From assembly GCA_021730225.1 (NCBI GenBank), contig CP072532.1:207230-271229 (forward strand): a stretch of DNA of 64,000 nt. The letters run 5' to 3'. The notes beneath the pieces are model-generated. The model was not told the DNA's origin, made no database searches, and worked only from the letters and a program-made list of their open reading frames with translations. This DNA comes from Candidatus Vesicomyidisocius sp. Agig_15_S12 (GTDB lineage: Bacteria; Pseudomonadota; Gammaproteobacteria; PS1; Pseudothioglobaceae). The translations under genes were made by a program, and so were the position numbers. Below are positions 5,386 to 47,339 of the stretch, piece after piece. Each line of letters opens with the position of its first letter. Within the stretch, counting starts at the first letter, position 1.

Positions 5386-5724
5386 GAAGTTGGTCGGATG
5401 GTCGCTGGAGATTGATTTTCAGAGGAAAGTCCGGGCTCCATAGAGCAAAGTGTTAGCTAACAGCTAGGTATGGTGACATAACGGAAAGTGATGCAGAGAT
5501 TTAGACCGCCTATTTTAATGGGTAAGGGTGAGAAGGTGTGGTAAGAGCGCACCGCGGGATTGGTGACAATCGTGGCAAGGAAAACCCCACTTGGAGTAAG
5601 CTCAAATAGACTAACGATAACGTTGCTCGCGAAGTTTGTGGGTAGAGTGCTAAAGCGTTTTGGTAACAAAACACGTAGATGAATGACCATTTATTACAGA
5701 ACCCGGCTTATAGACCGACTTCTT
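5386..5724 (+). ncRNA. rnpB: RNase P catalytic RNA (bacterial type A)
   Basis: Ribozyme that removes the 5' leader from pre-tRNAs. The universally conserved parts are readable in order: GAAGTTGGTCGGAtGGTCGC at the 5' end, GAGGAAAGTCCGGGCTCC, GGTAAGGGTGAgAAGGTG, GGTAAGAGCGCACCG, CAAATAGAC, TAGATGAATGACC, and the closing ACAGAACCCGGCTTATagACCgACTTCT, which pairs with the 5' end as helix P1. At about 339 nt it is shorter than the E. coli RNA (377). Much of the difference is in helix P3, where only a short CTGG..TTCAG hairpin stands in place of the longer E. coli arm. A T-rich run follows the 3' end. Any open frames across this interval are not genes. Confidence 0.97.
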
Positions 5725-6564
5725 TTGTTTTATATTTTTTATTTTATTGTAAAATATGATCTTTAAAAGAATTATTCAATTAATGTTATTTACCATATCA
5801 ACTAATAATTATTTGCATAATATTGTATGTAACTAAATATTCCTATTATTTATAATTTTGATTGAGGAGAATATGTTTTTAATTGGAAAAATACTGTTAA
5901 ATAGATTTAATCTATGGTAAGTAATTTTAATCAAGTTTTGGATAGAAAGAAGGTTAGAATTATTGAGATTTAAAGACCATAAAAGTTATCAACCTTACCT
6001 GAATTTGAATTATTGATAGTACAATTTATCAGAATCATATTTTGTTTAAGCGTAACTCTTTAAAGATAGGATAGTTTATTGATTAAGTTGAACAATTATT
6101 AGTACGTGTAAGATAATTGTTTATCAGTATTAAATATGTATAATTATCCTTTTAAGTAAGTTGCTAGACGTATACTAAAATAATAGAAGAAGGTTGTGGG
6201 ATGATTTTACCTTATCCATGCTTGAGACGCAAATAATAGCATTGGAGATGGTTTTTTGTAATAGTACTTGAGAATTGTACTAATCAATAACGCTTGTAGA
6301 ATCGACAAGTAATGAACTGATAGGGAAAAAAGGAGGATAAATAAATACTCCTGGTATATTGTTAAATACCTCTTTCATAGCTAGCTTCTAATGAGTTATG
6401 TATCAAGTTTTGTGTTTATATAATGATACCCAATTCCTAAGTGAATCGATATAGAAAGCCATTATAGTTGCCATTTTGGTTGTTTAAAAAGATTTAATTA
6501 GTATTATAATAAATAATTAAAATGATAATTGTTGAAATAAATATAGTAAATTATCGCATGTCGA
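5725..6564. other. 840-bp non-coding stretch after rnpB
   Basis: No intact gene. A well-formed ribosome-binding site (TTGAGGAGAAT) precedes an ATG at 5873 whose frame stops after 15 codons; see the separate low-confidence mraZ remnant. A small inverted repeat AGGAG...CTCCT lies near 6331-6352. The rest has stops in all frames. Confidence 0.7.
5873..6360 (+). pseudogene. Possible mraZ remnant
   Basis: Seen: a strong Shine-Dalgarno (GAGGAG) and ATG opening MFLIGKILLN, then stops. Further fragments in the same frame include VILIKFWIERRLE and, later, an NST-stop-ELY stretch. These loosely recall the start of MraZ (MF..G...LNLD..GR.AIP..FR) and its later HATELELD region. Known: in Pseudomonas, rnpB is followed by mraZ at the head of the division/wall cluster. 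Similarity is weak and could be chance; the synteny is the better half of the argument. Confidence 0.3.
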
Positions 6565-44671: not shown

Positions 44672-46042
44672 TTAATATTTATAACTCTCAGGCTTGAATG
44701 GGCCGTTTTTTGGGACATTGATGTAATTAGCTTGAGTGTCTGTCAGTATCGTAAGCACGCCATTAAAGCCATTCACCATACCTGCAGCTACCTCTTCGTC
44801 CAGTTTTTTAGGAAGAACTTTAACATAAATATTACCTCCATTATCGGCAAATTTTGCATTAAACAAGTGAATTTGTGCCAAGACTTGATTGGCAAACGAG
44901 CCATCCATAATGCGGCTCGGATGTCCTGTTGCATTGCCTAAATTTACTAAACGTCCTTCAGACAATAAAATTAAATAGTCATTTTTATTGTCTGTTCTAA
45001 AAATACGATGAACTTGAGGTTTGATCTCATCCCAACGCCAATTATCACGCATATATTGAGTGTCAATTTCATTATCAAAATGTCCAATATTGCAAACTAC
45101 TGCTCCTGGTTTAAGAGTTTGCAGCATGGCATTGTCACAAACATTGATATTACCTGTAGCAGTGACGATTAAATCAGTTGTATTTAGTAGATCTTTATTA
45201 ATGTCATCAATTAAACCTGTATTGATGCCGTTGATATAAGGAGAAATAATTTCAAAACCATCCATACAAGCTTGCATTGCACAAATTGGGTCAATTTCAC
45301 TGATTTTAACAATCATGTTTTCTTGACGTAGGCTTTGTGCAGAACCCTTACCAACATCGCCATATCCAATTACTAGTACTTTTTTGCCTGACATGAGCAT
45401 ATCAGTACTACGTTTAATAGCATCATTTAGAGAGTGGCGACAACCGTATTTATTGTCATTTTTTGACTTAGTCACTGAGTCGTTTACATTAATAGCAGGG
45501 ACTTTAAGTGAGCCTTCTTTCATCATTTCTAATAAGCGATGGACACCTGTTGTGGTTTCCTCAGAAATACCGTGAATGTTAGCTAATATCTTTGGATATT
45601 TTTCGTGTAATATTTGGGTTAAATCCCCACCATCATCAAGCACCATATTGGCTGCCCAAGGTTTACCATTTTTTAAGATAGTTTGTTTAATACACCATAA
45701 AAACTCCTCTTCAGTTTCACCTTTCCAGGCAAAGGTTGGGATGTCAGCTGCTACCATAGCACTAGCAGCGTGATCTTGAGTGGAGAAAATGTTGCAACTT
45801 GACCAACGTACTTGTGAACCTAAATCGATCAGTGTTTCAATTAAAACAGCGGTTTGAATAGTCATGTGGATACAACCAATAATTTTGGCATTTTTTAAAG
45901 GTTGTTTGCTTTTATATTTCTCTCGAAGAGCCATAAGTGTTGGCATTTCCATTTCTGCAAGCTCTATTTCTTTACGACCATAATCGGCCAGTTTCATGTC
46001 AGCGACTTTATAATCTTTACTATTTAAGGTTGAGTTATTCAC
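44672..46042 (-). CDS. ahcY: S-adenosylhomocysteine hydrolase
   Basis: Splits S-adenosylhomocysteine into adenosine and homocysteine, completing the SAM cycle. NAD loop GYGDVGKG at 226-233, DDGGD at 136-140, [14 protein letters not shown]-like [18 protein letters not shown] near 81-98, and the terminal PxYKY (FKPESYKY). 456 residues. It lies 24 bp after metK and shares its leader, so both SAM genes answer to the same signal. Confidence 0.97.
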
Positions 46043-46066
46043 TTTGATTATTATACCAATAATTAT

Positions 46067-47200
46067 TTATCTTAGTAAATGAGCGCGATCAGTTTTTTCC
46101 CAACTAATGTCATTTTCTGTACGTCCAAAGTGGCCATAACTAGCGGTTTGTTGATAGATAGGGCGTTTAAGATCAAGCATTTCAATTAAGCCTTTAGGAC
46201 GTAAATCAAAGTGTTTATGTATTAAATGTTCAATTGCTTGATTACTGATTTTTCCTGTACCAAAGGTTTCTACATTAATTGAGATAGGTTCTGCTACACC
46301 AATAGCATAAGAGACTTGAATCTCACATCTATCAGCTAAACCAGCAGCAACAATGTTTTTAGCTATATAACGTGTTGCATATGCTGTAGAACGGTCAACT
46401 TTTGATGGGTCTTTACCAGAAAATGCACCACCACCATGTCGGGCCATACCTCCATAAGTATCGACAATAATTTTACGGCCTGTTAGGCCTGCATCACCTA
46501 CTGGACCCCCAATGACAAAATGACCTGTTGAGTTGATGTGATACTGAGTTTTATTACTTAGCCATTTACTAGGTAGTACAGGCTTTATTACTTTCTCTAA
46601 GATAACTTTTCGTAAATCTGTAAGAGAAATATCATTATCATGTTGGGTTGATAAAACAACGGCATCAATACCTACTATTTTATGACCGTTATAAATCATG
46701 GATACTTGAGATTTTGCATCTGGGCGTAACCAAGGTAATACACCATCTTTCATTAGTTTTGCTTGACGTGCAACCAAAAGATGTGCATATAGAATAGGGG
46801 CTGGCATTAATGTATCAGTTGTATTACAAGCATAACCAAACATTAAACCTTGGTCGCCTGCTCCTTGTTCGTGATTAGATGATTCGTTAACACCTATAGC
46901 AATGTCTTGAGATTGTTCGCCGAGTAAATTGGTAATATTGCAAGTGTTGCCGTTAAAACCATATTCTTGTTTGTCATAACCAATATCAATAATAGTATTA
47001 CGCACAATTTTTTCATAATCAATATTGGCTCCTGTGGTAATTTCTCCAGCTAGTACGACATGATTACCTTTAACTAATGTTTCAACAGCAACACGTGAGT
47101 TTTTATCTTGTGTTAATGCTGCATCTAAGATAGCATCAGAAATTTGATCACAAATCTTATCAGGGTGCCCAGCAGATACAGATTCAGAAGTGAATATCAT
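46067..47200 (-). CDS. metK: S-adenosylmethionine synthetase
   Basis: Makes SAM from methionine and ATP. GHPDK at 11-15, [12 protein letters not shown] at 113-124, [19 protein letters not shown]-like stretch near 245. 377 residues (E. coli 384). I start at ATG 47200 because AAGGAG lies 7 bases upstream; a longer in-frame reading runs through the terminator hairpin and is not protein. Followed by ahcY. Regulation: the leader holds a probable SAM riboswitch, terminator and sequestered ribosome site (separate entries). Confidence 0.98.
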
Positions 47201-47204
47201 TTTT

Positions 47205-47257
47205 TTCTCCTTTATAAAACAAAAAGCCCTTAAAGCGGGCTTCCAAATAAAGGAGAA
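47205..47257 (-). terminator. metK expression platform: intrinsic terminator nested in an anti-SD/SD helix
   Basis: Reading the minus strand: UUCUCCUUUAU (47257-47247), then AAGCCC-GCUUUAA-GGGCUUUUUGUUUU (stem 47242-47237 with 47229-47224, followed by a U-run), then AUAAAGGAGAA (47215-47205), which holds the metK Shine-Dalgarno. The first and last segments are perfectly complementary over 11 bp, so the ribosome site can be hidden, while the inner stem is a textbook intrinsic terminator. Confidence 0.88.
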
Positions 47258-47259
47258 CA

Positions 47260-47326
47260 CCTACTTTAGCTTGTTTTAGCTTCCTATTTTGGTAGCAACG
47301 CTAGCAATCGGGACAAATCAGCGTGT
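47260..47326 (-). promoter_or_regulatory. SAM-II-like riboswitch aptamer upstream of metK-ahcY
   Basis: The leader begins ACACGCUGAUUUGUCCCGAU-UGCUAGCGU. Stem P1 pairs ACGCU (47324-47320) with AGCGU (47302-47298), enclosing GAUUUG..CCCGAUUGC, close to the SAM-II loop (P1-GAUUU...CCGUAUUGCA-P1'). Downstream, GCUAAAGUAGG (47270-47260) matches the SAM-II 3' element GCUAAAAAGGG, whose G's pair back into the loop (here with CCC). A second GCUAAAA lies just before it. Known: SAM-II binds SAM and represses methionine genes, mainly in alphaproteobacteria. Position upstream of metK fits. It could be SAM-V or a new variant. Confidence 0.65.
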
Positions 47327-47333
47327 AATTAAA

Positions 47334-47339
47334 ATTATA
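47334..47339 (-). promoter_or_regulatory. -10 element of the metK promoter
   Basis: TATAAT on the minus strand; the expected start of transcription is 47327-47326, immediately before the aptamer. No clear -35 hexamer. Confidence 0.65.

Follow-up and report, generated by a model that had tools for sequence, protein, structure and literature searches.

A divergent SAM-II-type riboswitch with a SAM-V-like hairpin almost certainly precedes metK in a clam-symbiont-type genome and its relatives

The window, which herein denotes the whole stretch of 64,000 nt that was analysed, comes from Candidatus Vesicomyidisocius sp. Agig_15_S12 (GCA_021730225.1, CP072532.1, 207,230-271,229). The genome has 1,033,397 bp, and two complete genomes of the same genus have 1,022,154 and 1,160,782 bp. 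On the minus strand of the window, metK is followed 24 nt downstream by ahcY. The metK leader contains, from 5' to 3' on that strand, a TATAAT box, about 7 nt, an element of 68 nt, an anti-Shine-Dalgarno (anti-SD)-like stretch, a hairpin with a U run, a Shine-Dalgarno (SD) sequence and the ATG of metK. RNase P RNA is the only match at Rfam gathering level across the window; it is of class A, lies at 5386-5726 (289.6 bits) and is ordinary. The features of the locus, in window coordinates, are as follows, R1 being a covariance model made from 29 metK leaders.

47334-47339, minus strand: extended -10 box TATAAT, TGCTATAAT, recognized by sequence
47258-47325, minus strand: whole SAM-II-type aptamer (R1, 87.7 bits, E 2.1e-19 in the window, a score that is not independent, since the window's own leader is among the 29 sequences of R1)
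47320-47324, minus strand: 5' strand of P1, ACGCU, paired in 100% of 26 distinct sequences
47314-47319, minus strand: L1 and third strand of the triplex, GAUUUG, invariant in 29/29 and equivalent to U8-U10 of SAM-V (PMC6061858)
47304-47311, minus strand: 5' strand of the pseudoknot, CCGAUUGC (P2a CC, P2b UUGC), nearly invariant, with pairs in 100% (P2b) and 98% (P2a) of cells
47298-47302, minus strand: 3' strand of P1, AGCGU, paired with the 5' strand in 100% of the 26 distinct sequences
47279-47296, minus strand: inserted hairpin P3 (GCUACC...GGAAGC), covarying, with one A.A mismatch in the window genome
47260-47270, minus strand: 3' strand of the pseudoknot, GCUAAAG-UA-GG, quoted as GCUAAAGUAGG, in which neither GCUAAAG nor GG varies across the 29 aligned sequences
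47260-47268, minus strand: proposed 5' strand of an antiterminator, UAAAGUAGG, complementary to the terminator arm and loop and sharing bases with the pseudoknot 3' strand
47247-47257, minus strand: anti-SD, UUCUCCUUUAU, whose pairing with the SD is kept in most genera with differing sequences
47231-47239, minus strand: proposed 3' strand of the antiterminator, CCCGCUUUA, equal to the terminator 5' arm and loop, assigned by complementarity
47222-47244, minus strand: intrinsic terminator hairpin (-11.1 kcal/mol), then a U tract
47205-47215, minus strand: SD region, AUAAAGGAGAA, with 11 bp of complementarity to the anti-SD
46067-47200, minus strand: metK, methionine adenosyltransferase (TIGR01034, 592.7 bits, E 2.6e-178), ATG at 47200-47198
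46050-46055, minus strand: TATAAT box directly before ahcY, TGGTATAAT; its counterpart in relatives stands before an SAH riboswitch
44672-46042, minus strand: ahcY, adenosylhomocysteinase (TIGR00936), with a GTG start in register with the ATG of relatives

All 25 leaders listed have a TATAAT box shortly upstream of P1, and transcription of metK is expected to start near 47327, 2-3 nt before P1, much as the first-pass annotation had predicted from this box. That annotation had also placed a SAM-II-like aptamer here, and the letters and coordinates that it quoted (P1 ACGCU/AGCGU, GAUUUG and the 3' strand) are right; it had omitted the minus strand. P1 encloses GAUUUG...CCCGAUUGC on the minus strand and is combined in H-type order with the pseudoknot P2, for which the published register is used (U20-A69, U19-A70, U68 unpaired). 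Depending on the helix, the 11 pairs that make up P1, P2a and P2b are all kept in 98-100% of cells. The first-pass annotation had looked to an alignment with related metK leaders for covarying P1 and pseudoknot pairs; the element proved to be conserved and P3 does covary, whereas the P1 and pseudoknot pairs barely vary across the leaders, so that covariation cannot prove the pseudoknot pairs. In P3, double-sided changes occur in four of five pairs (20 cells against 4.7 in shuffles, a score reached by 0/500 shuffles), and the paired fraction falls from 99% to at most 49% when the partners are slid. In a nested predictor, minimum-free-energy folding of the leader showed no pseudoknot and favoured the SD/anti-SD hairpin. 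In the crystal structure of SAM-V, SAM is held by three third-strand U residues, A18, U19, U20, G21, U47 and A48-A50, and the core superimposes on that of SAM-II (PMC6061858). The counterparts of these pocket positions (the GAUUU third strand, AUUGC and GCUAAA) are invariant in 29/29 aligned leaders; conservation, the covariation of P3 and the invariance of the pocket were all computed directly.

None of the SAM families of Rfam exceeded its gathering cut-off in the window, a cut-off that is a statistical rather than a biological criterion. The best-matching Rfam model at the metK leader, RF01726, aligns over its full length, at 18.0 bits against a gathering value of 44 (E 1.1 over 701 bases x 4227 families); hence the search with covariance models that the annotation had proposed produced a full-length alignment and no SAM-family model at its cut-off. 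From the window sequence alone, the likeness to SAM-II cannot be told apart from a chance match. RF00521 fails to single out the aptamer site in the window genome; RF01826 (SAM-V) matches neither the window leader nor the metK leaders of the family, the SAM-SAH family has no match in the window leader, and RF01057 (SAH riboswitch) has none in the window genome. Matches of the leader to freshwater-2, microRNA and Trp leader families were rejected, their scores being at chance level and mostly reflecting the SD/anti-SD hairpin. Across 60 genomes of the family RF01726, a model independent of R1, exceeded its cut-off in none, and its four best matches (26.2-27.9 bits) are the aptamer sites of metK leaders.

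The comparative evidence is decisive for the reality of the aptamer, predicted as it is from sequence. All 29 metK leaders examined bear the same element, and R1 locates a single copy per genome in 74/83 genomes of the order, with E values down to 2e-19, which bears out the aptamer that the first-pass annotation had proposed. The aptamer precedes metK in every distinct leader read but one, where the contig ends at the site. One further R1 match (L233) was taken as chance, since it lies inside a coding frame. In one family member that is 98% complete (G019, L234) no aptamer is recognizable; its metK leader keeps the TATAAT box and GCUAAAA..GGG. Among four close clam-symbiont-type genomes (L009-L012), the aptamer shows 0/372 differences, as against 9.4% at fourfold sites of metK, and the expression platform of the same four differs at 19.7% of positions, gaps counted. 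The SAM-II core was not found in the 400 nt before the match in 80 distant metK loci searched, and nothing was found in viral contigs with the DNA pattern of the aptamer.

The element stands upstream of a SAM gene, metK, where a SAM-II riboswitch is expected, and its features are spread over several known classes. With SAM-II proper (SAM_alpha, RF00521) it shares the H-type pseudoknot, the GAUUUG third strand, the UUGC/GCUAAAG core, a transcriptional platform and, as seen in another family of the class (L280-L282), metK as its target. It differs from RF00521 in having P3, in a P2a of only 2 bp, and in reading GAUUGC where SAM_alpha examples of the class mostly read CAGCUUGC. With the long-loop SAM-II of Bacteroidetes and marine sequences (RF01726; PMC2864571) it shares the order GAUUUG..GAUUGC..GCUAAAG and an insertion at the same place; unlike RF01726, it has a shorter P1 and an insert that is a covarying hairpin, and its scores of 18.0 bits in the window and at most 27.9 in relatives fall short of the gathering 44. 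As in SAM-V (RF01826), a P3 stem-loop comes directly after P1 and is followed by stacked A nucleotides, and P2a has 2 bp (PMC6061858). On the contrary, SAM-V reads UUGUG/CACUAA where the metK-leader aptamer reads UUGC/GCUAA, and P2a of SAM-V overlaps the SD, whereas the SD here lies about 50 nt downstream and is complementary to a separate anti-SD. The SAH riboswitch (RF01057) occupies the same locus in relatives, between metK and ahcY, but has another fold and another ligand and is absent from the window genome. SAM-II is stated to be without a P3 hairpin after P1 (PMC6061858); because a covarying P3 is present, we describe the element as a divergent SAM-II-type subfamily and not as a canonical member. 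Thus, the metK leader almost certainly carries, on the comparative evidence, a real and conserved SAM-II-type riboswitch that Rfam misses.

Downstream of the aptamer, a terminator-like hairpin with a U tract was found in 23/25 leaders, being weak in two (L014, -2.0; L249, -0.3), and the terminator was not recognized in two of the 25 leaders checked (L036 and L037). The terminator, the SD/anti-SD helix and the complementarity of the antiterminator strands were likewise computed directly. Summed over 26 leaders, the SD/anti-SD complementarity amounts to -275.4 kcal/mol, against -173.4 (sd 11.0) in shuffles (0/200), and that of the antiterminator to -166.1, against -116.0 (sd 8.5; 0/200), with the proviso that these pooled tests overstate independence, the leaders being related. 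Taken singly, most leaders have a terminator stronger than the antiterminator, and the latter is often non-significant on its own (p 0.1-0.6).

These features are very probably those of an OFF switch by which SAM controls metK through a terminator and a hidden SD; the ligand, the direction of the switch and the antiterminator itself, like the start of transcription, are what we infer. The metK transcript would begin at P1. Abundant SAM would bind the H-type pseudoknot and hold the strand GCUAAAG..GG in P2, which would then be unable to pair with the terminator 5' arm and loop (CCYGCUUUA), and the terminator would form. In any read-through transcript, the UUCUYCU stretch just past the aptamer would pair with the SD and block translation. 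With SAM bound, metK would thus be OFF at both levels, transcription and translation. At low SAM, UAAAG..GG would instead pair with the terminator arm and loop; the terminator would be broken, the anti-SD would be enclosed in a loop, and metK would be ON. A dual shut-off of metK by SAM, in transcription and in translation, is what the leader sequences probably encode.

The same aptamer might also act in translation only, through the anti-SD/SD helix, with the U-run hairpin serving as a structural spacer or a constitutive attenuator. The SD/anti-SD helix is indeed the strongest signal of the platform, and metK is still present where the terminator is weak or missing (L014, L036, L037 and L249). 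A stem and U tract across most genera, and a terminator loop whose complementarity to the aptamer strand exceeds chance expectation, speak against this purely translational control, and we consider it unlikely.

A second alternative concerns the ligand. The locus is metK-ahcY, and in Rhodobacterales metK is under the control of SAM/SAH switches (PMC4239095), so that the aptamer might sense SAH, or SAM and SAH alike, instead of SAM. This appears improbable: the SAM-specific core is conserved in full, including the U:A.U triple that surrounds the sulfonium in SAM-V; there is no SAM-SAH family match; and most relatives sense SAH separately through the Rfam SAH riboswitch, which stands before ahcY where it was read. 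RF01057 adjoins metK in 14/20 of the relatives' metK loci scanned and exceeds its cut-off in 62/83 genomes of the order. It was found neither in the window genome nor in its three closest relatives (G001, G005 and G006), and a further genome (G003) has no RF01057 over threshold and a shortened remnant of the SAH switch in the same place (L014). Comparison of window positions 46042-46066 with the metK-ahcY junctions of L009-L038 indicates that the window genome and its three sisters have lost the SAH riboswitch by deletion. The TATAAT box of ahcY survives in the window genome, about 8 nt before the start codon. Because this promoter-like box is kept just before ahcY, the gene may be transcribed separately, into a leaderless mRNA with GTG as its start codon. 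The first-pass annotation had placed SAM synthesis and SAH removal under one RNA sensor; in view of the SAH riboswitch in so many relatives and of the ahcY box kept in the window, joint control of metK and ahcY is possible and, in our view, doubtful.

A regulatory protein that binds the conserved leader, or a DNA operator within it, would be a third explanation, and the binding of a ligand by the RNA is itself a prediction from sequence. Nonetheless, the compensatory changes of P3 and an SD/anti-SD pairing that changes and is yet preserved act at the level of RNA, and the positions without variation fall on the SAM pocket of an aptamer already known. Moreover, MetJ is absent: metJ (PF01340) was found in 0/58 relatives, with a positive E. 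coli control; the first-pass annotation had contrasted the SAM-II-like aptamer with the MetJ that gammaproteobacteria usually use. A protein target or operator is therefore highly improbable. That the likeness to SAM-II is a chance similarity in one genome, as the E of 1.1 in the window scan might suggest, is refuted, since the element is conserved over the 74 genomes in which R1 finds its one copy, with zero aptamer changes among close relatives; such a coincidence is scarcely credible.

SAM-II had been regarded by the first-pass annotation as exceptional in gammaproteobacteria. A search of 369 Gammaproteobacteria (GTDB) found RF00521 over its cut-off in 30 and at E <= 0.001 in 117. In the GTDB, Gammaproteobacteria include the former beta-proteobacteria. 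Most of the 20 SAM_alpha loci read lie before a metZ/metY-like gene; in family f103, SAM_alpha stands directly before metK in 3/3 genomes found (L280, L281 and L282; TIGR01034), with an evident terminator in two. The published pictures of SAM-II distribution differ: one study already lists Gammaproteobacteria among its hosts (PMC2704228), and another, with about 200 genomes, found SAM_alpha in Rhizobiales and Rhodobacterales only (PMC4239095). The taxonomic surprise is thus smaller than had been claimed. In the open-access literature, no paper was found that describes metK of this lineage as being under a SAM-II switch. What is new is a divergent SAM-II subfamily that is invisible to Rfam and has a SAM-V-like P3.

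Other SAM-related aptamers were observed in the course of these scans. SAM-V riboswitches (RF01826, 26-45 bits, one over the cut-off) occur in the same family as the window genome (L274, L275, L276, L277 and L279), before a betaine-homocysteine methyltransferase gene in L275 and a metZ/metY-like gene in L279; with these copies, the family uses three SAM/SAH RNA classes. Elsewhere in the class, a SAM-II-type aptamer (L230 1501-1558; RF00521 28.2 bits, below cut-off) lies about 110 nt before metN, a gene of the methionine ABC transporter, in a complete genome of 2.0 Mb, and two tandem SAM-II-like aptamers about 90 nt apart (L265) occur in a genome with five SAM_alpha matches (G327). Family f108, which we guess to be beta-proteobacterial, has SAM-II-type aptamers and a terminator before metX (L231 1501-1567; L232 1501-1554, RF00521 32.1 bits, below cut-off). 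The f108 aptamers may be the 'metXZ element' of beta-proteobacteria that was left unassigned in an earlier study (PMC4239095).

The finding offers an explanation of how SAM synthesis may be controlled in a marine and symbiotic order without MetJ, and it indicates that the SAM-II models of Rfam miss a whole clade. The combination of SAM-II and SAM-V features should be useful for the question of whether the two classes share an ancestry. We give an even chance to the full reading, by which a subfamily with a SAM-II core and a SAM-V-like P3 acts before metK through one aptamer on two elements, a terminator and a sequestered ribosome site, and by which this aptamer, the sole SAM/SAH RNA sensor found in clam-symbiont-type genomes, would have been kept letter for letter while the adjacent SAH riboswitch was deleted. 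The relatives also provide a series in which regulation erodes as symbiont genomes shrink: the SAH switch decays and vanishes, and the SAM switch stays under strong constraint.
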